Assembly (NCBI RefSeq): GCF_933509905.1
Contig: NZ_OW150024.1
Location: 2,158,001 to 2,222,000, forward strand
Length of the DNA stretch: 64,000 nt
Direction: 5' to 3'
Source of the DNA: Trichlorobacter ammonificans
GTDB lineage: Bacteria; Desulfobacterota; Desulfuromonadia; Geobacterales; Pseudopelobacteraceae
Part shown: piece after piece, positions 7,818 through 21,995 of the stretch
Numbering within the stretch: position 1 is the first letter of the stretch
How the letters are laid out: every line of letters starts with the position of its first letter
Notes under the pieces: generated by a model
The model's database searches: none
What the model saw: only the letters and a program-made list of their open reading frames with translations
Told to the model about the DNA's origin: nothing
Position numbers and translations under genes: made by a program

Positions 7818-9803
7818 TTACAACTTGAACCTGCCCACCAGCGCCTCCAGATCCTTGGCAAGCCTGGCCAGGGAGGCGGCCGCTTCGGCGGTTTCATGGG
7901 CACCGTTGGCGGTTTCGTGGACAACGTCGGTGATCTGGTGAATGTTGGTGGAAATTTCGCCGGTGACCGCGGTCTGCTCCTCGGCGGCGGTGGCGATCTG
8001 GTGCACCTGCATGGTCACCTCGTTGATCCCTTCCAGAATCTGCTGCAGTGCTTCACCGGAACGGCGGGAGCTGTCCATCCCCTTTTCCACCTCCCGCACC
8101 CCCTGTTCCATGGAGGAAACAGCGCCGGCGGTCTCCTGCTGGATCGCCTTGATCATCTCGCCGATCTCCCGGGTAGCCCGCGTGGTCCGCTCCGCCAGGG
8201 CCCGCACTTCATCGGCCACCACCGCAAAGCCCCGTCCCTGCTCACCGGCCCGGGCCGCTTCAATGGCGGCGTTCAAAGCCAGCAGGTTGGTCTGGTCGGC
8301 AATCTCCTCGATGGTGCCGACAATGGCGCCAATCTGGTCGGAACGGGCACCCAGCGCCTCAACCGTATGGGCCGACTCCCGCACCCGGTCCGCAATCAGT
8401 TGCATACCGGCAATGGTTTCCTGTACCACGACGGCACCGTTATGGGCGTTGTGGGACGCTTGGTTGGCAACGTCGGAGGCCATGGAGCAGTTGCGGGAAA
8501 TGTCATTGGAGGTGGCGGACATCTCTTCGCTGGCGGTAGCCACCGTGGCTGACTGGGAGGCCACTTCCTCGGCGGCGGTGGCAATCTGGACGGCAGTACC
8601 CTGCAACTGGTTGGAGGCGGTGGCCACCTGGACCGTGGTGCTGGAGGCCCGGGAAATGATGGAGTGGATGTTGTCCACAAACCGGTTGAACCAGCGGCTC
8701 ACCTCGCCAAACTCATCGGTGCGGTCCGCCTCCAGACGACAGGTCAGGTCCCCTTCCCCCTGAGCAATATCCTGCAGCATCTCCACCAGGCGGTTCAGCG
8801 GCGTGGTGATGCTGCGCACGATCACAAACGTGAAGACCAGCGTCAGGGCACCCATTGCCAGGGAAAAGCACGCACTCAGAATCAGGGCGAGCCGGGCCTG
8901 GGCGGCAAGCTCTCCGGCCCGGGCCATGATCTCCCTGGCCAGGGCATCCTCAATCTCCTTCACTTGGTCAATCTTGGCGGTGATGGCGGTGAACCAGGTC
9001 TCGGGAGCCATGCCAAAGCCTCCGGCCATCCCCCGGCCGATGACGGCCGCGCTCAACTCCTCGACCTTCTTGAATTGCGGAGAGCCGGCCTTGGCATCGT
9101 AGGCTGTCACCGCAGCATCGGAACCGAACTTTTTGAACCCTTCCAGAAAACTCTTCTGCGCAGAAAGAATGGCGAAGGTGCGCTGGTAGGTTTCATCGCT
9201 GAAACGGTCCGCCGCAATCACGGCATTCAGTGTTGCCCGCTCCTTGCCCATCTCCTCCTTCACCTTGGACAGGGCAAAGTAAGAGATGGCGGCCCGCATC
9301 AGTTCGGGCTCCCTGCTGTTACGTCCCACCGCGGCAACCACATCCAGGTAGGAATAGTTAATGGCAGTGTAAAAGGCGAAGGAATCCTTGCCGTCAATAT
9401 TCAGTGCGTCCACCCTGCTGCGAATGTCGGCCAGCTTTTCCTGGTGCTTCGCGGCGGCATCAAGTGATGCCTTCACAACCCGGGCAGTATCGGGATGGGC
9501 CAGCAGAACCTCGGCCAGTTGCCGGAACTGGTCATCAGACAGCTTGCGCTGGCGTTGCAAATCCTCCCTGAACCGCGCTCCTTTCGCGTTGATGTAACCG
9601 GAGGAAAGGCCTCGCTCCTTCTGCAGTTCGTGGACCAGCGCCCCCACCTTCACGGAAAGGGCCACCAACCGCTCGGTCTGCCGCAGGTTCGTCAGGGTCC
9701 GGTACTTATCCAGCACCTCCCGGCCGGAAAAAAAGACCAGCCCCAGGATGGGCAGCAGGAGCAGCAGGAGCAGTTTGGTTCGGATCGTCAGATTTTTCAG
9801 CAT
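7818..9803 (-). CDS. Methyl-accepting chemotaxis protein with NIT (nitrate/nitrite sensing) domain
   Basis: 661 residues from the ATG at 9803, chosen because GGAGGT lies about 10 bases upstream; the frame is open further but without support. Order: TM1 (about residues 10-27), a periplasmic helical domain with [14 protein letters not shown], the hallmark of the NIT domain, TM2 (about 305-330), HAMP ([15 protein letters not shown]), and a methyl-accepting signalling domain with the hairpin tip around [22 protein letters not shown] domains are proposed nitrate/nitrite sensors, so this receptor probably steers the cell toward nitrate, in keeping with the nap/nitrite reductase genes 3 kb away. A candidate FNR-like site lies upstream. 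Confidence 0.92.
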
Positions 9804-10011: not shown

Positions 10012-10464
10012 CTAGCCTTCGGTCATCACCTTCTCATTGTACAGTCCCTCGATCTTGCGACGATGTCCCAGCTCAACCTCGGCAAAGGTGAGCAGGGTCT
10101 TTTGCAGCACCGGATCCTCGGTCATGCCGGCGGCGGCCTTGTACAACTGGTAGGCCTCTTCCTCGGCTTTCAGCGCAAAGGTGAGGATTTCCTGGTAGTT
10201 CATCTGCGGATGAAACGGCACCTCCCGCAGGTAGCGGCCAATGGTCGCCTCCGGCAGGGCACAACTGTTGTGCTCGGCAATCTTGTCCGGATCGATGCGT
10301 GAAAACACCTCCTTATGGGTCGCCTCTTCGGTTGCCAGCTCCGCAAACAGCTTGCGGGCAGCGGGACTCTCGGTCAGCTCTGCGGCCCGTTTGTACAGCT
10401 GGTAGGCAATTTCCTCTCGCTCAACAGCAAAATCAACAACCTGCTTCAGTGTTATGAAGCTCAT
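10012..10464 (-). CDS. Ferritin-like / rubrerythrin-type two-repeat protein
   Basis: 150 residues from the ATG at 10464, with AGGAGGGG upstream. Two similar halves each carry a carboxylate-rich helix pair: EREEIAYQLYKRAAEL followed by EEATHKEVF, then KAEEEAYQLYKAAAGM followed by EVELGHRRKIEG. The E...ExxH spacing is that of a four-helix ferritin-like di-iron protein; there is no rubredoxin domain. A peroxide-handling or iron-related role is inferred. It overlaps the bcp stop by one base (TGATG), so the two are coupled. Confidence 0.8.
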   Translation of the reverse strand: MSFITLKQVVDFAVEREEIAYQLYKRAAELTESPAARKLFAELATEEATHKEVFSRIDPDKIAEHNSCALPEATIGRYLREVPFHPQMNYQEILTFALKAEEEAYQLYKAAAGMTEDPVLQKTLLTFAEVELGHRRKIEGLYNEKVMTEG

Positions 10465-10952
10465 CAACCCCTCCTATCACAATGATATTCTTTAATATAC
10501 TCAAGAACTTGAGCTGGATGCTGTTCGGCTTTTGAAACCGTGGTCCAGTGTTTCCTGACGATGCCGTCGGGGCAGATAAACACCGTCGAACGGATCACCC
10601 CGGACACGGTCTTACCGTACATGCTCTTTTCACCGAACGCACCATAGGCCTTCATGACCAGGGTATCCGGATCGGAGAGCAGCACCATGTTCAGATCATG
10701 GGCTTCGATGAATTTCCCATGGGAGGCCAGCGAATCCCTGCTGATTCCCAACAGCGTTATGTCGAGTCGATCGAACTCCGGCATCAGGTCACGAAAACTA
10801 CTGGCTTCCCTGGTACATCCCGGGGTGTTGTCCCGGGGATAGAAAAACACGATCAGCCGTTTGCCGGCATAGTCAGCCAGACGGTGGCGTCTGCCGTCGC
10901 TTCCCTCAAGATCGAAATCAGGAGCTGGTTGATCCGTCAGGTTTCTGATCAT
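10464..10952 (-). CDS. bcp: Peroxiredoxin, BCP type
   Basis: 162 residues from the ATG at 10952; a GTG at 10958 would add two residues. The AhpC/TSA fold has the peroxidatic cysteine in YPRDNTPGCTREASSF. In atypical two-Cys BCPs a resolving cysteine usually sits five residues later; here that position is serine, so the enzyme probably works as a one-Cys type with an outside thiol. It reduces hydroperoxides and would pair with the ferritin-like protein downstream for oxidative defence. Confidence 0.9.
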   Translation of the reverse strand: MIRNLTDQPAPDFDLEGSDGRRHRLADYAGKRLIVFFYPRDNTPGCTREASSFRDLMPEFDRLDITLLGISRDSLASHGKFIEAHDLNMVLLSDPDTLVMKAYGAFGEKSMYGKTVSGVIRSTVFICPDGIVRKHWTTVSKAEQHPAQVLEYIKEYHCDRRG

Positions 10953-11111
10953 CCGCACATTCCCCTTTTACCTGTATAGTGCTGCAGACCGTCTGTGCGC
11001 ACCCGCCGCACGAACTGTGCACCTTAATACGGTAAACACACTGAAAATGCAACGGTTTCATATTTTTTTCAACTGCAACTGTAAAAAGATTAGGCAAACC
11101 AAAGCAACCAT

Positions 11112-11127
11112 GTTACCTTTTGGTAAC
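11112..11127. promoter_or_regulatory. Palindromic operator in front of the sigma-54 activator gene
   Basis: GTTACC-TTTT-GGTAAC, a perfect 6+6 inverted repeat, ends 15 bases before the activator ATG. The same arms with a 4-base spacer recur at 12535-12550, in front of nap. The position close to the start codon suggests autoregulation, probably repression, by the activator's own product; that is inference. Confidence 0.65.
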
Positions 11128-11142
11128 GCACAAGGAGTAACC

Positions 11143-12513
11143 ATGTCTCAGTACACCATGTCAGACACCTATCGGTCCATTCTGGAAAGTATCGGCGAGG
11201 GGATCATTTTTGCCGACCAGGATGATCGCCTGACCTACATAAACCAGATGGCCGCCACCATTCGCGGCATCAAGGCGGAAAACTTCATCGGCCGCTCCAT
11301 CCTCGCCGTTCACTCTCCCAAATCGTCGGAGCGGATCAAGCAATTGCTGCTGGAGTTGCGGGCCGGCACCATCACCCAATCCCGCCGGGTCATCGAAGTC
11401 AGGGGGAAATATTTCGAAAACACCTATTACCCGGTGCGACGTCAGGATGGCAGCTATCGCGGCACCCTGTTGGTCAGCCGGGACGTGACAGAAAAGACCC
11501 AGCTCCTCGCGGAAAACCAGTCCCTCAAACAATCCACCGGCAGCCGTTGCTGCGGCCTGGAGGGGTTCGTCAGCATCAGCCCGGCCATGTTGCCGGTCTT
11601 CCAGCTGGTGGGAGCTGCCTCGCCCATCGACTCTACCGTGCTGATTACCGGCGAGTCCGGCACCGGCAAGGAACTGGTAGCCTCTGCCATCCACCGCAAC
11701 AGCAAGCGCTGCAGCCGACAGATGGTGGCGGTCAACTGCGCGGCCCTGCCCGACAATCTGGTGGAGTCGGAGCTGTTCGGCTATGCCCGCGGCGCCTTTA
11801 CCGGTGCCGTCTCCAGCCATCGCGGCAAATTCGAGCAGGCCGACGGCAGTACCATTTTTCTCGACGAAGTTGCCGATCTCCCCCTGCCCGCCCAGGCGAA
11901 ACTATTGCGAGTGCTGCAGGACAAGGCCGTCGTCCGGCTGGGCAGCGAAAAGCAGATCAAGGTGGATGTCCGGATCATTGCGGCTACCAACCGGGATTTG
12001 ACCGCCATGGTGGCGGCGGGCAGCTTCCGCGAAGACCTTTTCTACCGGCTGAACGTTATTTCAGTACGTATCCCCCCCCTGCGGGAACGGCGCGAGGATA
12101 TCCTCCCCCTGGCGGAGTATTTCGTCGGCTGGTTTACCCAGCATATGGAAAAATCAATCCAGGGGCTCTGCGAAGGGACCCGCTCCCTGCTGCTGGCCCA
12201 TGACTACCCCGGCAACGTCCGGGAACTGGAAAACGCCATGGAGCATGCCGTTGCCCTCTGTCAGGGGAACTGCATCGCGCCCCAGGATCTTCCCGACGCC
12301 TTCATTGCCGCCCGCAGCGATGGCCTGCATCAGGACTTCCCCCACCCCCTTGCCGAAGGGGGGACAACCTCTCTGTTTCGCACCCGGGAGCAGTACGAAC
12401 GCCAGGTTATCCTCGAGGCACTGGAGCGGACCGGCGGCCGCAAGGCGGAAGCCGCGAAGCTGCTCAACATCTCCCGCAAAACGCTTTGGGAAAAATTAAA
12501 ACAGTTGCAGTAA
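11143..12513 (+). CDS. PAS-domain sigma-54-dependent transcriptional activator
   Basis: 456 residues from the ATG at 11143 (AAGGAGT 5-11 bases upstream); the frame is open upstream but lacks support. An N-terminal PAS domain (about 5-120: ESIGEGIIFADQDDRLTYIN) is followed by a sigma-54 AAA+ domain with Walker A GESGTGKE, the sigma-54 contact loop GAFTGA, and a C-terminal Fis-type helix-turn-helix (KAEAAKLLNISRKTLWEKL). There is no receiver domain, so the signal is sensed by the PAS part itself. It lies directly upstream of a sigma-54 promoter and the nap genes in the same direction, making it the probable activator of nitrate reduction. Confidence 0.93.
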   Translation: MSQYTMSDTYRSILESIGEGIIFADQDDRLTYINQMAATIRGIKAENFIGRSILAVHSPKSSERIKQLLLELRAGTITQSRRVIEVRGKYFENTYYPVRRQDGSYRGTLLVSRDVTEKTQLLAENQSLKQSTGSRCCGLEGFVSISPAMLPVFQLVGAASPIDSTVLITGESGTGKELVASAIHRNSKRCSRQMVAVNCAALPDNLVESELFGYARGAFTGAVSSHRGKFEQADGSTIFLDEVADLPLPAQAKLLRVLQDKAVVRLGSEKQIKVDVRIIAATNRDLTAMVAAGSFREDLFYRLNVISVRIPPLRERREDILPLAEYFVGWFTQHMEKSIQGLCEGTRSLLLAHDYPGNVRELENAMEHAVALCQGNCIAPQDLPDAFIAARSDGLHQDFPHPLAEGGTTSLFRTREQYERQVILEALERTGGRKAEAAKLLNISRKTLWEKLKQLQ

Positions 12514-12534: not shown

Positions 12535-12550
12535 GTTACCCTTTGGTAAC
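12535..12550. promoter_or_regulatory. Palindromic upstream activator site for nap
   Basis: GTTACC-CTTT-GGTAAC lies 22 bases after the activator gene stop and about 78 bases before the -24 element of the nap sigma-54 promoter, a typical distance for an enhancer bound by a sigma-54 activator. The arms equal those at 11112-11127. Confidence 0.65.
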
Positions 12551-12626: not shown

Positions 12627-12643
12627 TTGGCACGTCTTCTGCT
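12627..12643 (+). promoter_or_regulatory. Sigma-54 promoter of the nap operon
   Basis: TTGGCACG-TCTT-CTGCT matches the sigma-54 consensus YTGGCACG-N4-TTGCW with one mismatch, and GG and GC are separated by the required 10 bases. Transcription would start near 12654, about 40 bases before napD. The element is directly behind an activator gene and its presumed enhancer site. Confidence 0.75.
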
Positions 12644-12696
12644 CTGTGTAACAGGATTTTATCTTTCTCTTATCTCCCTGTAGCGAGGTGATGCCC

Positions 12697-12969
12697 ATGC
12701 CGATTTCCGGCGTTGTCGTGAAGTGCACTCCCGGAACCGAAGCCTCGGTAGCCGAACACGCGCGGCACTGTGCCGGCGTCGAGGTCCATGCGGCCCTGCC
12801 CGACGGGCAGGTGGTAGCAGTCATCGAGGGTGATACCGTCAAGCAGGGGGCCGAGCGGGCCATGCGCCTCCAGGAGATCGAAGGCGTCATATCGGTCCAG
12901 GTGGCCTACCATAATTTTGAAGACGCAACCACAGAACAAGGAGGCGGGTATGGAATTGACGAGGCGTGA
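12697..12969 (+). CDS. napD: Periplasmic nitrate reductase assembly chaperone NapD
   Basis: About 90 residues, MPISGVVVKCTPGTEASV..., matching NapD in length and in the pattern of N-terminal strand, DGQVVAVIEGD and IEGVISVQVAYHNFE. NapD binds the Tat signal peptide of NapA and holds it back from export until the cofactor is in place. ATGs at 12691 and 12697 are both possible; the second has the better distance from GCGAGG. It overlaps napA by 20 bases and is the first gene of the sigma-54 operon. Confidence 0.88.
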   Translation: MPISGVVVKCTPGTEASVAEHARHCAGVEVHAALPDGQVVAVIEGDTVKQGAERAMRLQEIEGVISVQVAYHNFEDATTEQGGGYGIDEA

Positions 12970-15262
12970 TTTCCTGAAAGCAAGTGCGGCTGCCGCGGCG
13001 TTTGCCGCTGCCGGTGCACCGGGGCTGGCTCCCCGGCTGGCCGAAGCGGCCGATGACAAGGGTATCAAATGGGGCAAAGCCCCCTGTCGGTACTGCGGCG
13101 TCGGCTGCTGTGTCCTGGTGGGGGTGAAGGACGGCAAGATTGTGGCCACCAAAGGCGACCCGGCCGGTCCGGTCAACAAGGGCCTCAACTGTATCAAGGG
13201 CTACTTCCTCGCCAAGGCTCTCTATGGCAAAGATCGCCTGACCACGCCGCTCATCCGCAAAGGGAACAAGATGGTTCCTGCCACCTGGGACGAGGCCCTT
13301 GACCTGATCGCCTCCAAGTACAAGGAAGCCATCACCAACCACGGTCCCGATTCCGTTGCCATCTACGGCTCCGGCCAGTGGACCGTGTTCGAGGGGTACA
13401 CCGCGGTCAAACTGTTCAAGGGGGGCATCGGTACCAACAACGTGGAGCCCAACGCCCGACTCTGCATGGCCTCCGCCGTGGTGGCCTTCATGAACACCTT
13501 CGGGTCCGACGAGCCGATGGGCTGCTACGACGACCTGGATATTGGCGACACCTTCATTCTCTGGGGCGCCAACATGGCGGAAGCTCACCCGATCCTCTTC
13601 TCCCGCCTGATCGACAATAAACTGAAGAATCCCAAGGTGAAGATCATCGACATCGCCACCCGCAGGACCCGCACCACCCAGATGGCCGATGAGTACATCG
13701 CCATGCAGCCCCAGGGTGATCTGGCGGCCCTGAACGCCATTGCCCACGTCATTTTGCGGGACAAGCTCTACGACGAGGCGTTCGTCAACAAGCATGTTTC
13801 CTTCAAGCGGGGCACCGAAAACCAGCCGTACGGCCTGAAGGACAAGGAGGCTCCCAAGGAAGAGCCGAAGCCGCTGACCTTCGAGCAGTACAAGGAACTG
13901 ATGAAGCCCTTCACCCCGGAATGGGCGGAAAAGCTCTCCGGTATCCCGGCCAGAAAAATCGAGGAGCTGGCTCGGCTGTACAGCGACAAGAGCCGCAAGG
14001 TCAACTCCCTCTGGACCATGGGGGTCAACCAGCATGTTCGCGGCGTCTGGGTTAACAACCTGATCTACAACCTCCACCTGCTGACCGGCAAAATCGGCAA
14101 GAAGGGTGAGAACCCGCTCTCCCTCACCGGCCAGCCCTCCGCCTGCGGCACCGCCCGCGAGGTGGGTACCTTTGCCCACCGGCTGCCGGCCGACATGGTG
14201 GTGATGAACGAGGCGCACCGCAAGAAGACTGCTGAAATCTGGGGAATCGACCCCAAGAAGATATCTCCCAAGATGGGACTGCACACCATCGAGATGTATC
14301 GTGCCATTGACCGGGGCGAACTGAAGTGTCTCTGGATTCAGTGCACGAACCCGTTCCAGTCCATTCCCAACCTTTCGCGCTACCGCAAGGCCGCCGAGGC
14401 CCGCAAGGCGTTCATCGTGGTGTCGGACATCTATCCCACCAAGTCCACTGAAGTGGCCGACGTGATTCTTCCCTCCGCCTCCTGGGTGGAGAAGGAGGGA
14501 ATGTACGGCAACACCGAACGCCGCAACCAGCAGTGGTTCAAGCTGGTGGAGCCGCCGGGGCAGGCCAAGGAAGACACCTGGCAGTTGATCCAGCTTGCCA
14601 AACGGCTGGGAATGGGCCACCTCTTCCCCTACAGTGAAAAGGGCTTCTACAAGGAGATGTGGGAAGAGTACCGCAAGTTCACCATCGGCACCGGCAAGGA
14701 CCTGGCCCCCTACGAGGCCTATCAGAAGGTGCGCGGTCTGCGCTGGCCGGTCAAGGCCAACGGCCAGGAGACCCGCTGGCGCTACGTCGACTTCGACGAT
14801 CCCTATGTCAAGCCGGGCGAAGGGCTCAAGTTCTACAAGGCACCGGGCAACAAGGCCAGCATCTGGTTCCGCCCCTACGAGGCCCCGGCGGAGTCGCCGG
14901 ACAAGGACTACCCGTTCTGGTACTGCACCGGTCGTCTGCTGGAGCACTGGCACACCGCCACCATGACCGGCCGGGTGCCCGAGTTGAAGCGGGCCATGCC
15001 GGAGGCCACCCTTGAAATGCATCCGGACGATGCCAAAAAACTGGGGATCAGGAACCGTGACAAGGTCAAGGTCAGCTCCCGGCGCGGATCGGTCATTCTG
15101 CGGGCCGAGATCAACGGCCGCGGCAAGCCGGAAAAAGGGAACGTCTTCACCACCTTCTTCGACGAAACCAAGCTGATCAACGACCTCTGCATCGACGCCT
15201 TCGACCCGCTCTCCAAAGAGCCGGATTTCAAGAAGTGCGCGGTGAAGATCGAGAAGGCGTAA
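12950..15262 (+). CDS. napA: Periplasmic nitrate reductase catalytic subunit
   Basis: 770 residues from the ATG at 12950 (AAGGAGG upstream). A Tat signal (TRRDFLK, then an Ala-rich stretch) is followed by the [4Fe-4S] site C46-x2-C49-x3-C53-x27-C81 and the molybdenum-ligand Cys172 in NARLCMASA. It belongs to the monomeric Nap group of bis-MGD enzymes and reduces nitrate to nitrite in the periplasm. Electrons should come from NapGH via the small cytochrome downstream. It is shorter than the E. coli enzyme (828 residues), like other deltaproteobacterial NapA proteins. Confidence 0.95.
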   Translation: MELTRRDFLKASAAAAAFAAAGAPGLAPRLAEAADDKGIKWGKAPCRYCGVGCCVLVGVKDGKIVATKGDPAGPVNKGLNCIKGYFLAKALYGKDRLTTPLIRKGNKMVPATWDEALDLIASKYKEAITNHGPDSVAIYGSGQWTVFEGYTAVKLFKGGIGTNNVEPNARLCMASAVVAFMNTFGSDEPMGCYDDLDIGDTFILWGANMAEAHPILFSRLIDNKLKNPKVKIIDIATRRTRTTQMADEYIAMQPQGDLAALNAIAHVILRDKLYDEAFVNKHVSFKRGTENQPYGLKDKEAPKEEPKPLTFEQYKELMKPFTPEWAEKLSGIPARKIEELARLYSDKSRKVNSLWTMGVNQHVRGVWVNNLIYNLHLLTGKIGKKGENPLSLTGQPSACGTAREVGTFAHRLPADMVVMNEAHRKKTAEIWGIDPKKISPKMGLHTIEMYRAIDRGELKCLWIQCTNPFQSIPNLSRYRKAAEARKAFIVVSDIYPTKSTEVADVILPSASWVEKEGMYGNTERRNQQWFKLVEPPGQAKEDTWQLIQLAKRLGMGHLFPYSEKGFYKEMWEEYRKFTIGTGKDLAPYEAYQKVRGLRWPVKANGQETRWRYVDFDDPYVKPGEGLKFYKAPGNKASIWFRPYEAPAESPDKDYPFWYCTGRLLEHWHTATMTGRVPELKRAMPEATLEMHPDDAKKLGIRNRDKVKVSSRRGSVILRAEINGRGKPEKGNVFTTFFDETKLINDLCIDAFDPLSKEPDFKKCAVKIEKA

Positions 15263-15268
15263 CCCCGT

Positions 15269-15305
15269 GCCCCCTCACCTTCCTTCCCCGGGGAGGTGAG
15301 GGGGC
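15269..15305 (+). repeat. Perfect 12-bp inverted repeat between napA and napG
   Basis: GCCCCCTCACCT pairs exactly with AGGTGAGGGGGC around a 13-base loop that itself contains CCCCGGGG. There is no T tract, so it is unlikely to be a full terminator; an RNA-stabilising or processing hairpin that sets napA expression above the downstream genes is more plausible. Confidence 0.7.
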
Positions 15306-15319
15306 GACGCAAGGTATGT

Positions 15320-15985
15320 ATGAATCCTGAAACCGAACACCATACCGCCATCAGCCGACGTCTCTTTCTAAAGGGAAGCGTGCTTGCGCCACTGGCCCTT
15401 GCCCTGGGCGGGGGAGCCATATCGGCAGTCTATCTTCGGCCGGCCCAGGCGCGGGAGTTCTACCTGCGGCCGCCGGGCGCCCTGGCAGAGAAGCGCTTTC
15501 TGGCTGCCTGCGTCAAATGCGGCAAATGTGCCCAGGCCTGTCCCTACCAGTCAATCAGCATGGCCGGCGGTGAGGCGGGTATCGGTATCGGCACCCCCCA
15601 TATCGTACCGAGGGAGATGCCCTGTTACCTTTGTCCTGACATCCCCTGCGCCAAGGCATGTCCTTCCGGAGCACTGGATGCCAAGCTCAACGAGGTTGAA
15701 AAGATCCGCATGGGCACGGCGGTGATCGTTGACCGGTCGGCATGCCTCTCCATCCGCGGCCTGCGTTGTGAGGTCTGCTACCGCCAGTGCCCGCTGATCG
15801 ACAAGGCGATCACGCTGCAGAACCGGCACAACACCCGTACCGACGCGCACACCATCATGGAACCGGTGGTGCACAAGGATAAATGCGTCGGCTGCGGTAT
15901 CTGCGAGAAAGTCTGTGTTCTGGAGAAACCGGCCATCGTCATCCAGCGGACGCCGCCGGCGCAGAAAGATCATTATGAATTCTAA
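15320..15985 (+). CDS. napG: Ferredoxin-type quinol dehydrogenase subunit NapG
   Basis: 221 residues from the ATG at 15320. A Tat signal (ISRRLFLKGS, twin Arg at 13-14) precedes four [4Fe-4S] motifs: CVKCGKCAQACP, CYLCPDIPCAKACP, a Cys-rich block CEVCYRQCP, and CVGCGICEKVC. NapG works with membrane NapH to move electrons from menaquinol to the periplasm. It overlaps napH by 11 bases. No napC gene is present in the cluster, so NapGH is the likely quinol route. Confidence 0.92.
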   Translation: MNPETEHHTAISRRLFLKGSVLAPLALALGGGAISAVYLRPAQAREFYLRPPGALAEKRFLAACVKCGKCAQACPYQSISMAGGEAGIGIGTPHIVPREMPCYLCPDIPCAKACPSGALDAKLNEVEKIRMGTAVIVDRSACLSIRGLRCEVCYRQCPLIDKAITLQNRHNTRTDAHTIMEPVVHKDKCVGCGICEKVCVLEKPAIVIQRTPPAQKDHYEF

Positions 15986-16748
15986 ATGGAGCATGGCCCG
16001 CAGGGGCGTACAATTGCTGATGATTGCCCTGCTCGCCTCCCCCCTGGCGGGCCTGACCCTGTTCCGGGGCAACCTGGCGGCGGCGGAGCTCTTGGGTCTT
16101 CCCCTTTCCGATCCGCTGGCCTTTCTGCAGGCCCAGATCGGCGGACGGGTCTTTGTACTCTCGTATCTGGTCAGCACCCTGATCGTGGTCGGCACCTACT
16201 TCCTGCTGGGGGGGCGCAGCTTCTGCGGCTGGGTCTGCCCGGTCAACCTGCTGACGGAGCTGGCCGACCGTCTGCGCGGATCGGAAAAAATCGACCGTGC
16301 GACCCTGCCCCTGTCCGCGAACTACTGGACCCTGGCGCTGGTACTGGCCATGGTGGCACTCACCGGGGTCCCGCTGTTCGAGCTGCTGTCGCCCATCGGT
16401 ATCGTGAGCCGCGCCATTGTCTTCGGCTCACTGCTGCCCCTGCTGCTGGTGGGGGCCATTCTGCTGGTGGAGCTGCTGGTGGCCCGGCGGGTCTGGTGCC
16501 GCTCCCTGTGTCCCCTCGGCGGTTTTTACAGCCTGCTGGGACGATTGAGTCCGCTGCGGGTCGGCTTTGTCGCCGAGCGTTGCACCCACTGCAACGAATG
16601 CACGGCTGTCTGTCCCGTTGAGGAGGTGTTGGCACCATCCCTGGAACAGAACAGTCCCCAGGTGGTCGCCGGTGCCTGCACCCGCTGCATGGCCTGCCTG
16701 GATGCCTGTCCCACCAAGGCACTAACCGTTACACTTGGCTACAAATGA
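15975..16748 (+). CDS. napH: Membrane quinol dehydrogenase subunit NapH
   Basis: 257 residues from the ATG at 15975. About four membrane helices (residues 12-30, 60-78, 116-135 and 146-168), two CxxxCP motifs at the membrane (FCGWVCPV and WCRSLCPLG) and two C-terminal cytoplasmic [4Fe-4S] sites (CTHCNECTAVCP, CTRCMACLDACP) match NapH. It oxidises menaquinol and passes electrons to NapG. Confidence 0.93.
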   Translation: MNSKWSMARRGVQLLMIALLASPLAGLTLFRGNLAAAELLGLPLSDPLAFLQAQIGGRVFVLSYLVSTLIVVGTYFLLGGRSFCGWVCPVNLLTELADRLRGSEKIDRATLPLSANYWTLALVLAMVALTGVPLFELLSPIGIVSRAIVFGSLLPLLLVGAILLVELLVARRVWCRSLCPLGGFYSLLGRLSPLRVGFVAERCTHCNECTAVCPVEEVLAPSLEQNSPQVVAGACTRCMACLDACPTKALTVTLGYK

Positions 16749-16780: not shown

Positions 16781-17086
16781 ATGAAACGCATGGTACAGCT
16801 TGTCACCACCTTAGGCATGGTAGCCTCCCTGGCGCTTCTGGCGCCCGCATTCGCCAATGAACAGCCCGAATTGAACCTGGCAAAGGATGCGTCGGAGGCG
16901 CCGGGGACTCCCATGGCCGTTCCCCACGTAATGAAGCCGGGCGAAGACGGTGAGGCCTGCAACGCCTGTCACCGTAGCGGCGTTGGCAAGACACCGCCCA
17001 CCTCTCATCCCGAGCGGCTGAACTGTACCCAGTGCCACGTGCAGGGTGAAGTCAAGAAACCGGCCAAGGCCAAGAAAAAGAAGTGA
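16781..17086 (+). CDS. napB: Small diheme c-type cytochrome, NapB-like
   Basis: 101 residues from the ATG at 16781 (AAGGAG about 9 bases upstream). A Sec signal peptide ends near APAFA at 25; the mature part has two heme sites, CNACH and CTQCH, with VPHVMKPGEDGEAC before the first and TSHPERLNC before the second, like the heme regions of NapB. It is shorter than E. coli NapB and ends in a Lys-rich tail. Its place between napH and the napF-like gene supports a role as electron donor to NapA. The gene symbol is an inference from context. Confidence 0.7.
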   Translation: MKRMVQLVTTLGMVASLALLAPAFANEQPELNLAKDASEAPGTPMAVPHVMKPGEDGEACNACHRSGVGKTPPTSHPERLNCTQCHVQGEVKKPAKAKKKK

Positions 17087-17457
17087 CGCTCTCCCGCAAG
17101 GACTTCTTTCGGCAGGGGTTCTTCTCCCTGGGGGACACCCTGCTGAAAACTGCCGGCATCGCCTCGCCGGAAGCGCCTCCCGAGCAGGAGTTTCCGACCA
17201 CTGACGACGTCGGGAATACTGCCGAGCCGCGATGTGCGGAAGCCGACAACAGTCGCTGTCTGGCCCGCAGTTGCGGCTGTTTCAGCTGTATCGAACGCTG
17301 CGAAGTCCAGGCCATTACCCTGGCGGTCGGTACCGGCGTCCTGATCGATACTGCGCTGTGTACCGGTTGCGGTGCCTGCCGCGAGGTCTGCCCGGTGACG
17401 CCGAAGGCGATCCGGCTGGTACGACGGGCGGAGCACAATCAGCCGGCAGCAGCTTGA
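17083..17457 (+). CDS. napF: NapF-like ferredoxin
   Basis: 124 residues, starting at a GTG (17083) that overlaps the previous stop (GTGA). The N-terminus LSRKDFFRQGFF recalls NapF and other Nap-associated ferredoxins. One standard [4Fe-4S] motif (CTGCGACREVCP) pairs with an irregular Cys set (CLARSCGCFSCIERCE), so one or two clusters are possible. NapF is thought to help load iron-sulfur centres into NapA in the cytoplasm. The family is short and variable, hence moderate confidence in the name. Confidence 0.65.
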   Translation: MTLSRKDFFRQGFFSLGDTLLKTAGIASPEAPPEQEFPTTDDVGNTAEPRCAEADNSRCLARSCGCFSCIERCEVQAITLAVGTGVLIDTALCTGCGACREVCPVTPKAIRLVRRAEHNQPAAA

Positions 17458-17501
17458 CATGTTTATTTTTTGTGCAACAAGGACGTAGTACCCTTATTTT
17501 G

Positions 17502-17522
17502 ATTGCATGAATGCCATGCAAT
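17502..17522. repeat. Inverted repeat upstream of the octaheme nitrite reductase gene
   Basis: ATTGCATG-AATGC-CATGCAAT is a perfect 8+8 inverted repeat ending 33 bases before the nitrite reductase start. It could be an operator or a leader hairpin. A TTGACA lies at 17454-17459, but I see no convincing -10 at the right distance. Confidence 0.5.
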
Positions 17523-17555
17523 ACAATCACCACAGGAAGGAAAGGAGAACGAAGT

Positions 17556-19193
17556 ATGCTGAAGCAGAAACTGGCAACAGCGGTAACTATCGTCGGAATC
17601 GGCGCCTTGCTGGCGATTCCGTCGGTGGCAGCCAAGGCAAAACCGGCCGCCAAGCCGGCCAAGGACGGACGTGAGACCTGTTACGCCTGTCACACCGAGG
17701 TGAAGAGCCTCAAGGAGAACTCCAAGCACGCGGCCATCGCCTGTACGGTGTGCCACGACAAGACCAAGGAGCACCTGGAGAAGGGGCCGGATGTCAAGCC
17801 GGTCACCAAGATTGACCAAGCGGTCTGCGGCTCCTGCCACAAGAACCAGTATGAAAGCTTCTACGCCGTCCACCATGACCCCACCGGTGCCCGCAAGGAA
17901 AAGGGGATACCCGCCGGCCGTTCTCCGCTGCAGGACAAGCTGCTGGCAGGCCACGGTTTCACGTTTGAGCATGCCGAGCCCCGTGGCCACGCCTACATGG
18001 TAGTTGACCAGTTCGCCGTGGACCGCTTCCAGGGCGGCCGTTACCAGTTCAAGGGCGGCTGGAAGAACTATGACAAGGTGGGCAAAACTTGGGATATCCT
18101 GGAAGATCGCGGCCCCAACGCCAAGCTTCCCGAGACCGCCATGGCCGGCAACCCCACCTGCATCCAGTGCAAGTCCTCCGACCTGATCCTCCAGTGGAAA
18201 CACCTGGGTGAGAAGGGCGGCAAGTTCGACCGCACCTCCAACGTCAACGACGTGGTCAAGGCCATCAACAACCCGGTGGGCTGTATCCACTGTCACGACC
18301 CCCACGGCGCCCAGCCCCGGATCGTGCGTGACGGCCTGATCGCCGCCATCGAGAAGGATCCGGCCAAGAACATCTTCGCCAAGAACGGCAAGACCGACCT
18401 GAAGGTGATCGACTTCCGCGGCTTCCGTAAGATCGGCGTCATGGAGAAGACCGACTCCCGCATGATGTGCGCCCAGTGCCACGTCGAGTACAACTGCAAC
18501 CCCGGCACCCAGCGCACCGACGGCAAGCCGGTGACCTTTGCCGACGCCCGCACCAACCACTTCCCGCTCAAGAATTCCCTGCAACTGCTTGAGCACTATC
18601 GCAGCATCGACTTCTTCGACTTCAAGCACGCCGTCACCGGCGCCAAGCTGATCAAGTTCCAGCACCCCGAGGCCGAGACCTATGCCGGTTCCGCCCACGA
18701 CAAGGCCGGTGTCCAGTGCCACCAGTGCCACATGCCGCAGGTAAAGGGCAAGGACGGCAAGAAGTACTCCACCCACGGCGTGGTCAAGCCGATCCAGATG
18801 GTGCAGGAGTCCTGCATCAGCTGCCACAAGGACTACACGCCCAACAAGGCCAAGTTCATGATCGAGACCATCCGCAACTACACCAAGGGTAAGATGCGCA
18901 AGTCCGAGTACTGGCTGGCCCAGTTGATCGACACCTTCGCCGTTGCCCAGCGTGAGGGCGTTTCCCCCACCATCCTGGATCAGGCACGCCTCAAGCATGA
19001 AGAGGCCCATGCCCTCTGGGAGTACTGGACCGCTGAGAACTCCGACGGTTTCCATAACCCCGAGCAGGCACGTCAGAGCCTGACCGGCTCCATCTCTGCC
19101 TCCAAGGCCGGCGTCAAGCTGCTCAACGACGCCATCATGGCGGTAAAGCAGAGCAAGAAGGAAGAACCGAAGAAAGAAGAACCCAAGAAGTAA
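17556..19193 (+). CDS. Octaheme c-type cytochrome nitrite reductase (ammonia-forming)
   Basis: 545 residues from the ATG at 17556 (AAAGGAG about 9 bases upstream), with a Sec signal to about residue 25. Eight heme sites: CYACH 42, CTVCH 63, CGSCH 91, CIQCK 202, CIHCH 243, CAQCH 305, CHQCH 388 and CISCH 420. The fourth, CxxCK, is the lysine-ligated catalytic heme of NrfA-type enzymes. Eight motifs with the lysine heme fourth is the pattern of the TvNiR octaheme family. Tyr312 and Cys314 (VEYNC) match the Tyr-x-Cys pair that is covalently linked in that enzyme, and HPEAE holds the likely catalytic His370. It should reduce nitrite to ammonium. A repeated EEPKK tail ends the protein. Confidence 0.9.
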   Translation: MLKQKLATAVTIVGIGALLAIPSVAAKAKPAAKPAKDGRETCYACHTEVKSLKENSKHAAIACTVCHDKTKEHLEKGPDVKPVTKIDQAVCGSCHKNQYESFYAVHHDPTGARKEKGIPAGRSPLQDKLLAGHGFTFEHAEPRGHAYMVVDQFAVDRFQGGRYQFKGGWKNYDKVGKTWDILEDRGPNAKLPETAMAGNPTCIQCKSSDLILQWKHLGEKGGKFDRTSNVNDVVKAINNPVGCIHCHDPHGAQPRIVRDGLIAAIEKDPAKNIFAKNGKTDLKVIDFRGFRKIGVMEKTDSRMMCAQCHVEYNCNPGTQRTDGKPVTFADARTNHFPLKNSLQLLEHYRSIDFFDFKHAVTGAKLIKFQHPEAETYAGSAHDKAGVQCHQCHMPQVKGKDGKKYSTHGVVKPIQMVQESCISCHKDYTPNKAKFMIETIRNYTKGKMRKSEYWLAQLIDTFAVAQREGVSPTILDQARLKHEEAHALWEYWTAENSDGFHNPEQARQSLTGSISASKAGVKLLNDAIMAVKQSKKEEPKKEEPKK

Positions 19194-19325: not shown

Positions 19326-21995
19326 ATGTCCGCACCACCCAACAACACGTTTCTCAAACAGTGGGGCGTCCTGGGGATAGCGTTCTTTCTCCTGGGGGGA
19401 GCGGTCGTGCACAACCTCTACAAAGGCTACCGGGATACGGAGGCCATTGAGCAGCAGCGTTTGAAAACCCAGGCGCGGGTGGTTGCCGAAAATATTTCCA
19501 ACTCCATCGGGGCAACAGACCGGGTGCTGCTCACGTTGCGCAGCGGTCTGCGCGGCGTGCCGCCGCAACGCTGGAGCGCTATTGCCACCACCAGCAGCCT
19601 GAAGCAGTTGGAGTCGCTGATTCCGGGCGTTCGCACCTTCCTGGGGGTGGACAGTGCCGGACGCATCAGATTTTCCAATCGTCCGGAACTGGTGGGAACG
19701 TCAGTGGTCTATCGCGACTACTTCAGAATTCCCCGGGAAGCCTCCGGCGACGATATCCTTTTCGTAGCCCCTCCCTTCCAGACCGTCCTGGGCAGCTGGG
19801 GCATGAACCTGGTACGGATCATCCCGGGGCAGGACGGCGCATTCGGCGGGATTGTGGCCGCCACCCTGGACCCGGATCACTTCACCGCCCTGCTCGGCTC
19901 GATCAACTACAGCGGGGATATGGTGTCCGCGATCATCCACGGCGACGGCCTGCTCTTTACCATGGCGCCGGAATGGAAAGAACTGGCCGGCAAGAACCTT
20001 GCCCTGCCCGGCACCCTGTTTTCACGACATCGCGCCAGCGGTGCCGTGGAAAACCTTTACCACGGCCTGTTCCGCGCCACCGGTGACGAGCGGATGGTTG
20101 CCCTGCGCACGGCCGTTGTGGACGAACCGAAAACCGACAAGCCGATCATCGTGGCCGCTTCCCGGAGCGATGCCAGCATATTCAGCGGCTGGCGGGCGCA
20201 CCTGCGTAACCAGACCCTGGTGCTGTTCAGTATCATCCTGGTATCGTCATACCTGCTGGCCCGCTACCAGCAGTCGAAACGGGTCCAGTTGCAGCAGACC
20301 GCGGCAGCCAACGCCAAGCTGCGCAAACTGACCCACGGCATCGAAAACAGTGCCAGTGCCGTGATGATTACCGACAAGAACGGCACCATCGAATACGTCA
20401 ACCGCAAGTTCTGTCAGTTGACCGGCTACGGCATCGACGAGGCCGTGGGCCAGAATCCCCGCATCCTCAAGTCCGAGGCTACCCCCCGCGAAGTGTTCGA
20501 CAACCTCTGGCGTACCATTCTGAGCGGTTCGGAGTGGCGCGGCGAGTTGCTCAACCGCCGCAAGAACGGCGAACTGTACTGGTCCATCGCCTCCATCAGC
20601 CCACTGCGGGACGACCAGGGGGAAATCACCCATTTCATCGCCAATGTCGAAGACATCAACGACCGCAAGAACGCTGAAGCCACCATCGAACACTTGGCCT
20701 ACTACGACCCCCTCACCGACCTGCCCAACCGTCGCATGCTGCAGGACCGCCTGGAGATCGCCCTCAAGCGCAGCCGCCGCCAGGGAAGCGGCATGGCGCT
20801 GCTGTACCTCGACCTGGACGGCTTCAAGCATGTCAACGACAACCTGGGGCATCCGGCCGGGGACCGGCTGCTCAAGGAAATGGCCACCCGCTATACCTCG
20901 CTGTTGCGTGACGACGACCTGGTCTGCCGCATGGGGGGCGACGAGTTCGCCGTGATCCTCCATGACGTCCACCATGACGAAGATGCGGTCGTAGTGGCCC
21001 ATCGCCTGCTGGAACAGACCGCCCAGCCGGTGCAGTTGGACGATTCCGAAGTGGTGGTCACCGCCAGCATCGGTATCGCCCTCTTCCCCAAAAACGGTGA
21101 CGACACCCGCACCCTCGAGAAAAACGCCGATATCGCCCTCTACCACGCCAAGGGGGAGGGAAAGAACACCTTCTCCTTCTTCGACGAGGAACTGAACAGC
21201 GCCAGCCGCAACCGGATCGCCCTTGAGCAGCGCCTGCGCCAGGTGCTTGAGAAGAACGAACTGCTGGTGCTGTACCAGCCCAAGATATCACTCGCCACCG
21301 GCAAAGTGACGGGGGTCGAGGCCCTGGTACGCTGGAACAGCCCGGAGTTCGGCATGGTCTCGCCACTGCGCTTCATTCCCTTGGCCGAGGAAACCCGCAT
21401 GATCATCCCGATCGGCGAATGGGTGTTGGAAACCGCTTGCCGCCAGCAGGTACTCTGGCAGGAGCAGGGGTTGTCGCTGACCATGGCGGTCAACCTTTCC
21501 TCGGTTCAGTTCAAGTCCCCCACCCTGATCGAGCGGATCACCGCCATTCTGGATAAAACCGGCATGTTGGCCGAGCAGCTGGAGCTGGAACTGACCGAAA
21601 GCGCCCTGGTGGAAAAGCCGAACGAAGCCACCTGGATTCTGGAGCAACTCCGTTCCCTGGGCTGCGGTATCGCCATCGACGACTTCGGCACCGGCTACTC
21701 CTCCCTGGCCTACCTCAAAAACTTCCCGGTAACGGTGCTGAAAATCGACCGCACCTTCGTGCGTGACCTCGCCCACGACTCCGGCGACCGGGCCATTGCC
21801 CAGTCAGTGGTGGCCCTGGCCAACAACCTGGACATGCAGACCGTGGCCGAAGGGGTGGAACAGCAGGAGCAACTGGCCATCCTGCGCGAGTTGGGCTGTG
21901 CTTTCGTGCAGGGGTTCATTTACTCCCGGCCGGTCCCTGCCGATGAGCTGCCCGCCATCGTGCATACCATCACTGCGGGGGACGAATCGCTTTAA
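19326..21995 (+). CDS. Membrane sensor with PAS, GGDEF and EAL domains
   Basis: 889 residues. TM1 (about 12-30) and TM2 (about 297-314) enclose a periplasmic region with a Cache-like pattern (VDSAGRIRFSN, YRDYFRIPREASGDD). A PAS domain (about 335-455) is followed by GGDEF with an intact motif (RMGGDEFAVI) and EAL with intact VEALVRW and DDFGTGYSS. Both cyclic di-GMP synthesis and breakdown look possible. It stands alone behind its own promoter, directly after the DNRA cluster, but nothing shows a functional link. Confidence 0.92.
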   Translation: MSAPPNNTFLKQWGVLGIAFFLLGGAVVHNLYKGYRDTEAIEQQRLKTQARVVAENISNSIGATDRVLLTLRSGLRGVPPQRWSAIATTSSLKQLESLIPGVRTFLGVDSAGRIRFSNRPELVGTSVVYRDYFRIPREASGDDILFVAPPFQTVLGSWGMNLVRIIPGQDGAFGGIVAATLDPDHFTALLGSINYSGDMVSAIIHGDGLLFTMAPEWKELAGKNLALPGTLFSRHRASGAVENLYHGLFRATGDERMVALRTAVVDEPKTDKPIIVAASRSDASIFSGWRAHLRNQTLVLFSIILVSSYLLARYQQSKRVQLQQTAAANAKLRKLTHGIENSASAVMITDKNGTIEYVNRKFCQLTGYGIDEAVGQNPRILKSEATPREVFDNLWRTILSGSEWRGELLNRRKNGELYWSIASISPLRDDQGEITHFIANVEDINDRKNAEATIEHLAYYDPLTDLPNRRMLQDRLEIALKRSRRQGSGMALLYLDLDGFKHVNDNLGHPAGDRLLKEMATRYTSLLRDDDLVCRMGGDEFAVILHDVHHDEDAVVVAHRLLEQTAQPVQLDDSEVVVTASIGIALFPKNGDDTRTLEKNADIALYHAKGEGKNTFSFFDEELNSASRNRIALEQRLRQVLEKNELLVLYQPKISLATGKVTGVEALVRWNSPEFGMVSPLRFIPLAEETRMIIPIGEWVLETACRQQVLWQEQGLSLTMAVNLSSVQFKSPTLIERITAILDKTGMLAEQLELELTESALVEKPNEATWILEQLRSLGCGIAIDDFGTGYSSLAYLKNFPVTVLKIDRTFVRDLAHDSGDRAIAQSVVALANNLDMQTVAEGVEQQEQLAILRELGCAFVQGFIYSRPVPADELPAIVHTITAGDESL

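Follow-up and report, generated by a model that had tools for sequence, protein, structure and literature searches.

The window analysed here, a stretch of 64,000 nucleotides from Trichlorobacter ammonificans, carries at 17556-19193 an open frame for a multiheme cytochrome that stands behind genes for periplasmic nitrate reductase (Nap), and it raises the question of which enzyme this frame encodes, how electrons reach it and when its genes are on.

The octaheme enzyme and its identity

An alternative in-frame start at 17511 would give a longer protein of 560 residues; since several relatives also begin with MLK..., we kept the start at 17556 given by the original prediction, an annotation made earlier from the sequence. 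The minus strand opposite is open over the same interval as well, and as its frame matched no Pfam family we took it for a by-product of the high G+C of the window (62.5%). Of the eight heme motifs in the protein, seven are CxxCH and the fourth is CxxCK (CYACH at residue 42, CTVCH at 63, CGSCH at 91, CIQCK at 202, CIHCH at 243, CAQCH at 305, CHQCH at 388 and CISCH at 420), with Tyr312-Asn-Cys314 three residues past the sixth motif (305-309). These eight heme sites, the place of the CxxCK and the Tyr-x-Cys pair had been predicted, and the residue numbers proved exact. In 20,000 shuffles of the same residues eight motifs never arose, the maximum reached being three.

Residues 1-37 resemble a signal peptide and are not in PDB chain 8rv0_Y, while residues 38-532 align with the full 495-residue chain of PDB 8rv0, 8rvm and 8rxu with zero differences. 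All three entries are named octaheme (cytochrome c) nitrite reductase, and the 8rv0 entry appears to belong to T. ammonificans. We are nearly certain that the frame encodes TaNiR, the periplasmic octaheme cytochrome c nitrite reductase (ONR) of T. ammonificans or of a strain with the same protein. The gene is already known, with a characterised enzyme, a solved structure and a described gene block. The available portion of PMC12142623 presents its in vivo ammonifying function as proven, the enzyme making ammonium from nitrite, and that of PMC13390470 likewise reports the ammonifying function; a covalent Tyr-Cys bond and a hexamer are described for NiR in the accessible text of PMC12285233. Besides the identity of residues 38-532 throughout, our locus shares with that of TaNiR the Nap genes directly upstream and a genome with no pentaheme NrfA, and we saw no differences between the two.

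In the ONR of Thioalkalivibrio nitratireducens, TvNiR (PDB 2ot4, 2zo5 and others), catalytic roles belong to Lys188, Arg131, Tyr303 and His361. TvNiR has the same eight motifs, with CxxCK fourth, and the same Tyr303-x-Cys305 pair, although its identity to TaNiR is only 49% over 513 aligned columns. CIQCK at 202-206 aligns with CLNCK at 184-188 of TvNiR, His370 with His361 and, counted along the alignment, Arg157 with Arg131; the CxxCK, Tyr-x-Cys, Arg157 and His370 sites are invariant in 14 aligned ONRs, TaNiR counted in. By analogy with what is established for the family, nitrite would bind to the lysine-ligated heme 4 of TaNiR and undergo a six-electron reduction to ammonium, the other seven hemes would pass electrons inward, and Tyr312 (probably bonded to Cys314), Arg157 and His370 would help to supply protons. 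NapA makes nitrite in the same compartment, so that the block as a whole converts nitrate to ammonium.

Given that PF02335 takes in both NrfA and ONR, it was reasonable to consider that the frame might encode a pentaheme-type NrfA, or a member of the family with another main job, such as detoxification of NO or hydroxylamine or the reduction of sulfite; some NrfA serve detoxification, as the accessible text of PMC12285233 has it. The NrfA of Geobacteraceae shares with TaNiR the Pfam family and a CxxCK at the active heme, but has five motifs in the 10 rows checked, not eight, and lies on the other side of our tree. In that tree of 31 rows, two of them identical, the 21 octaheme rows, TvNiR among them, and the 10 pentaheme NrfA rows separated at a support of 100/100, with TvNiR on a long branch whose position within the ONR side is unsure by the warning of the tree program. 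Because the frame has eight motifs and falls on the ONR side, we rejected its identity as NrfA; with the full-length match to a solved octaheme nitrite reductase and the position of the gene behind Nap genes, we consider either form of this alternative very improbable. The assignment to the TvNiR type rather than to pentaheme NrfA, which the original prediction had made and had proposed to check by phylogeny, was thus borne out by the identity to TvNiR, by the matched Lys, Tyr-x-Cys and His and by the tree; in that same tree, which holds ONR and NrfA rows and no row of hydroxylamine oxidoreductase (HAO), the frame did not group with non-reductase octaheme cytochromes, the outcome named as a refutation.

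HAO has CxxCH at heme 4 where TaNiR has CxxCK, and its Pfam family, which we take to be PF13447, is absent from the matches, so that we rejected this identity too. A non-reductase octaheme cytochrome of the HAO or tetrathionate reductase kind, or an epsilon-Hao, is the least probable reading of all, for while it would account for eight hemes, for a Cytochrome_C554 profile match right at threshold (20.9 against 20.8 bits) and for a place beside Nap such as epsilon-Hao has in Caldithrix abyssi (PMC5317091, available part), it is opposed by the CxxCK at heme 4, the 49% identity to TvNiR and the 225.6 bits for PF02335, with the tree holding no HAO row. By its description epsilon-Hao is a separate octaheme family, kin to HAO and set apart from TaNiR. 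As that part of PMC5317091 describes it, this octaheme nitrite reductase of C. abyssi and others immediately follows a Nap cluster that includes NapGH, and NrfA is lacking. The placing of an octaheme enzyme after Nap genes is therefore not new in itself.

The gene block and its distribution in relatives

Upstream of TaNiR, and in the same direction, lie napD, napA, napG, napH, the gene of a diheme cytochrome and that of a small ferredoxin (Table 1), which overlap or stand a few tens of bases apart; the gap between the ferredoxin and TaNiR genes is 98 bases. The diheme protein falls short of the NapB profile, a cut-off that no gene of the genome reached, and the ferredoxin falls short of NapF (20.2 against 102.2 bits). 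A sigma-70 scan near the ONR gene gave a single 9/12 site at 17499-17527, with 0.4 expected, and this weak sigma-70-like match may mark a promoter of the gene's own within the 98 bases.

Table 1. Positions of the TaNiR gene, its block and the proposed control sites in the window
Feature	Position	Strand	Evidence or remark
PAS - sigma-54 activator AAA - Fis-type HTH regulator	11143..12513	+	PF00158 235.5 bits, PF02954 55.5 bits, PAS domains
Palindrome GTTACCTTTTGGTAAC	11112..11127	+	Ends 15 bases upstream of the likely ATG (11143) of the regulator; proposed autoregulatory site
Palindrome GTTACCCTTTGGTAAC	12535..12550	+	Starts 93 bases before the start of the -24/-12-like site; proposed activator site
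Sigma-54 (-24/-12) like site TGGCACGTCTTCTGCT before napD	12628..12643	+	11/12 consensus bases; consensus match, not proof
NapD	12688..12969	+	PF03927 71.4 bits, cut-off 28
NapA, periplasmic nitrate reductase	12950..15262	+	TIGR01706 1028 bits, cut-off 930.55
NapG, ferredoxin-type, twin-arginine-like start	15296..15985	+	NF007012 270.8 bits, cut-off 269
NapH, membrane ferredoxin-type	15915..16748	+	TIGR02163 238.7 bits, cut-off 213.05; ATG at 15975 likelier start
Diheme cytochrome, NapB-like, 113 aa	16745..17086	+	Two CxxCH; NapB Pfam 11.7 bits, cut-off 25.1
Small ferredoxin, 124 aa, GTG start, SRKDFF N-terminus	17083..17457	+	Two 4Fe-4S motifs
Octaheme nitrite reductase (TaNiR)	17556..19193	+	545 aa; N-terminal signal-like stretch; PF02335 225.6 bits
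CIQCK, fourth heme motif, residues 202-206, lysine-ligand active-site heme	18159..18173	+	Matches CLNCK 184-188 of TvNiR
Tyr312-Asn313-Cys314, catalytic Tyr and Cys partner	18489..18497	+	Matches Tyr303-x-Cys305 of TvNiR chain 2zo5_A

Two neighbours of the block are recorded here in their own right. Divergently upstream, on the minus strand at 10012-10958, are a rubrerythrin-family gene and an AhpC/TSA peroxiredoxin gene, homologues of which lie near ONR in 18 and 23, respectively, of the 40 loci described below. Directly downstream of TaNiR, at 19326-21995, is a PAS-GGDEF-EAL gene with a weak Cache match; at five loci within the same genus, homologues of it likewise follow ONR.

The genome is a single contig of 3.06 Mb with a completeness of 99.99%, and in it the frame at 17556-19193 is the only PF02335 gene and the only ONR; a profile search of this contig returned no second PF02335 protein, and plasmids gave no ONR match. 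A separate nrfHA handling nitrite, which had been named as speaking against the predicted role, was accordingly not found, and the only match to PF03264, the NrfH/NapC family, is a 521-residue multiheme protein encoded elsewhere. According to the portion of PMC11972089 available, T. ammonificans has a gene for ONR, which it couples to Nap, and none for pentaheme NrfA, and it relies solely on ONR for the conversion of nitrite to ammonium. The original prediction had concluded from the pairing with Nap that TaNiR is the main nitrite-to-ammonium step. That conclusion stands on the lack of another PF02335 protein and on the published reliance on ONR, but the pairing alone does not imply it, because the ONR of relatives is often away from Nap and in some lies behind nar genes, and because the genome also encodes NarG (TIGR01580, 1527 bits, cut-off 1084; L042:1225-4800, which is C1 1781267-1784842). 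A siroheme-type protein of 427 residues lies above the Pfam NIR_SIR cut-off and below every NCBIfam cut-off, its gene having, by eye, a cysteine synthase and a transport permease as neighbours. NarG or this protein could also act on nitrate or nitrite.

Similar pairings are reported for other organisms in the available portions of PMC11972089 and PMC12142623. In Trichlorobacter lovleyi (NrfA-3) ONR adjoins Nap genes, as here, but is accompanied by two pentaheme NrfA (PMC11972089); in Desulfurivibrio ONR works with Nap, as here, and is 44% identical to TaNiR (PMC12142623).

Within the family, ONR occurs in 50 of 76 genomes and NrfA-type matches (315 bits or more, the five motifs checked in 10 only) in 27, with 13 genomes carrying both and 37 ONR only; many of these genomes are drafts, and absences are uncertain to that extent. 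With fragments counted, there are 56 ONR pieces, 39 of which have the small ferredoxin within 1 kb. NapA lies within 6 kb on the same contig for 18, all of which have the ferredoxin too; a further 21 pieces have only the ferredoxin, and 17 lack both.

Forty ONR loci were taken for a closer look. NapA is directly upstream of ONR in 12 and the ferredoxin in 27, to which L097, with an interrupted ONR, may be added; at L079 nap genes lie about 6 kb away on the opposite strand. The diheme gene is present at 13 loci, namely the 12 with NapA directly upstream and L097, whose contig starts inside napH; the 27 others lack it. Since the diheme gene is found only at Nap loci and the ferredoxin also beside ONR without Nap, the diheme protein tracks Nap, whereas the ferredoxin accompanies the ammonifying unit over a wider range of loci. 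Five loci (L084, L086, L104, L109 and L112) have ONR without NapA and with narI and a narK-like transporter, the latter recognised by eye, and L085 has NapA, narI and narK-like genes together; the sequence used to find narI is a genuine NarI (PF02665, 219 bits), and the one used for the narK-like genes is an MFS transporter. By eye, an hcp gene lies near ONR at L084 and at L091, the latter likewise without NapA.

Among the best 80 of 429 relatives, taken from named genomes, the ferredoxin is upstream of ONR in 32 loci, a count in which many organisms overlap the family set and some loci end too near ONR to show the ferredoxin. Three loci (L161, L162 and L173), in drafts titled Acidobacteria, Holophagaceae and Geothrix, encode ONRs 66-67% identical to TaNiR, by transfer or by binning error. 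At L097 (1069-14860) ONR is split by about 12 kb carrying a transposase and DNA-transposition genes (PHROG 310, 296), which could be an insertion like those of Mu-like phages or an artefact of assembly.

The small ferredoxin and the electron route

Eight cysteines, to bind two 4Fe-4S clusters, are conserved without exception in an alignment of eight rows of the small ferredoxin, as is an RKxFF close to the start of the protein. Its N-terminus bears only a loose likeness to a twin-arginine signal, and charged residues occupy the stretch that follows. If the protein stays inside the cell it would not be a direct donor, because TaNiR is periplasmic, and it would more likely serve as an assembly factor.

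As a gene belonging to ONR only, the ferredoxin was rejected, given that 13 of its 52 family matches are more than 1 kb from any ONR. Four of these 13 adjoin NrfA, two are near NapA only, in one case (L211) in the company of NapA and a diheme protein, and seven are near none of ONR, NrfA and NapA; around six of these seven we recognised no nitrate gene by eye, one of the six (L207) lying at a contig end.

NapGH reportedly feed both Nap and TaNiR. Intact napGH is missing between napA and the diheme gene at three of the 12 Nap-ONR loci: at L085 and L116 the interval leaves no room for it, and at L095 a stretch of 68 residues, 37% identical to NapH, stops soon after in frame, so that NapH looks decayed there. 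The locus of G026 (L154) is also without intact napGH. In these four genomes, two of them single-contig, no protein matched NapH above the cut-off, the best reaching 83-94 bits against 213, comparable to the 78 bits of the second-best NapH match in the T. ammonificans genome. Because intact napGH is missing at these three Nap-ONR loci, the NapGH model may hold in T. ammonificans but cannot be general, and the genomes of L085, L095 and L116 may use another quinol-oxidising route.

For T. ammonificans itself it was not unreasonable to consider that Nap and TaNiR both normally receive their electrons from NapGH and that the small ferredoxin is a mere assembly factor, a proposal that in our judgement could equally well prove right or wrong. 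It is favoured by the place of napGH inside the block, with both proteins above their cut-offs, by the start of the ferredoxin described above, and by NapF, a comparable FeS protein that is an aid to NapA maturation in the available part of PMC5317091. It is opposed by those relatives that have NapA, the diheme protein, the ferredoxin and ONR but no intact napGH, and by the retention of the ferredoxin beside ONR where Nap is absent.

A proposed sigma-54 switch and its meaning

The gene just upstream of napD encodes a regulator with the domains of a sigma-54 activator, whose start we placed from the position of a palindrome. With at most one mismatch the palindrome GTTACCNNNNGGTAAC occurs twice in the window, at 11112 and 12535, where 0.02 would be expected, and genome-wide the looser GTTACNNNNNNGTAAC occurs at these two positions alone, one on either side of the regulator. 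As the reversed control gave one per strand, two palindromes genome-wide are not striking in themselves, but their position is. Similarly, a -24/-12 scan with at most two mismatches found 27 sites across the window, fewer than the 36.4 expected by chance, so that what speaks for the site at 12628 is its position and its conservation.

Six of the 40 loci (L077, L078, L079, L085, L095 and L108) carry the regulator with an identity of at least 58%, in each case together with two of the looser palindromes. Five of them have a TGGCAC-type site 92-112 bases past the nap-proximal palindrome; at L108 TGGCGCAACATTTGCT stands 93 bases past it. The strict -24/-12 search gave no site at L078 and L079, where CTGT replaces CTGC; the pattern was relaxed after these sequences had been viewed, which leaves the relaxed counts not independent, and a randomly drawn 230-base segment of the window contains the relaxed pattern in about 1.1% of cases. 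The looser palindrome is also present once each at L058, L106 and L112, with the regulator not found at L106 and L112, and at L100 the regulator is more distant (43%) and the palindrome is missing. At L108 NapA was not found, and the regulator, the site and the ferredoxin-ONR pair are retained. A shortened NapD-like frame (MPVSGI...) was noticed by eye at about 8421-8591 of that locus, between the regulator and the ferredoxin-ONR pair, and looks like the scar of a lost nap cluster. Judged from these sequences, the regulator would bind at the palindromes and, as a sigma-54 activator, would control the nap-ONR block.

What we infer of the electron route, of the role of the small ferredoxin and of sigma-54 control can be put as one tentative proposal, which we hold with less than even confidence: that Geobacteraceae carry out nitrate ammonification with a movable unit, that the small two-cluster ferredoxin rather than NapGH would be the constant partner of ONR in it, as donor or assembly factor, with a minimal diheme protein to serve NapA, and that in Trichlorobacter and some relatives a sigma-54 activator dedicated to the unit, and regulating itself, would switch it through GTTACCNNNNGGTAAC.

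That T. ammonificans has ONR in place of NrfA is already published (PMC11972089, in the portion available), and the partner pattern and the switch suggest modest additions to a known enzyme. TaNiR accounts for the ability of a sludge bacterium that lacks the usual NrfA marker gene to conserve nitrogen in the form of ammonium, and surveys that count nrfA alone overlook such organisms, among them the 37 of 76 family genomes with ONR and no NrfA-type match. The regulator with its site, and the ferredoxin, offer handles on how electrons reach ONR and on when its genes are on.
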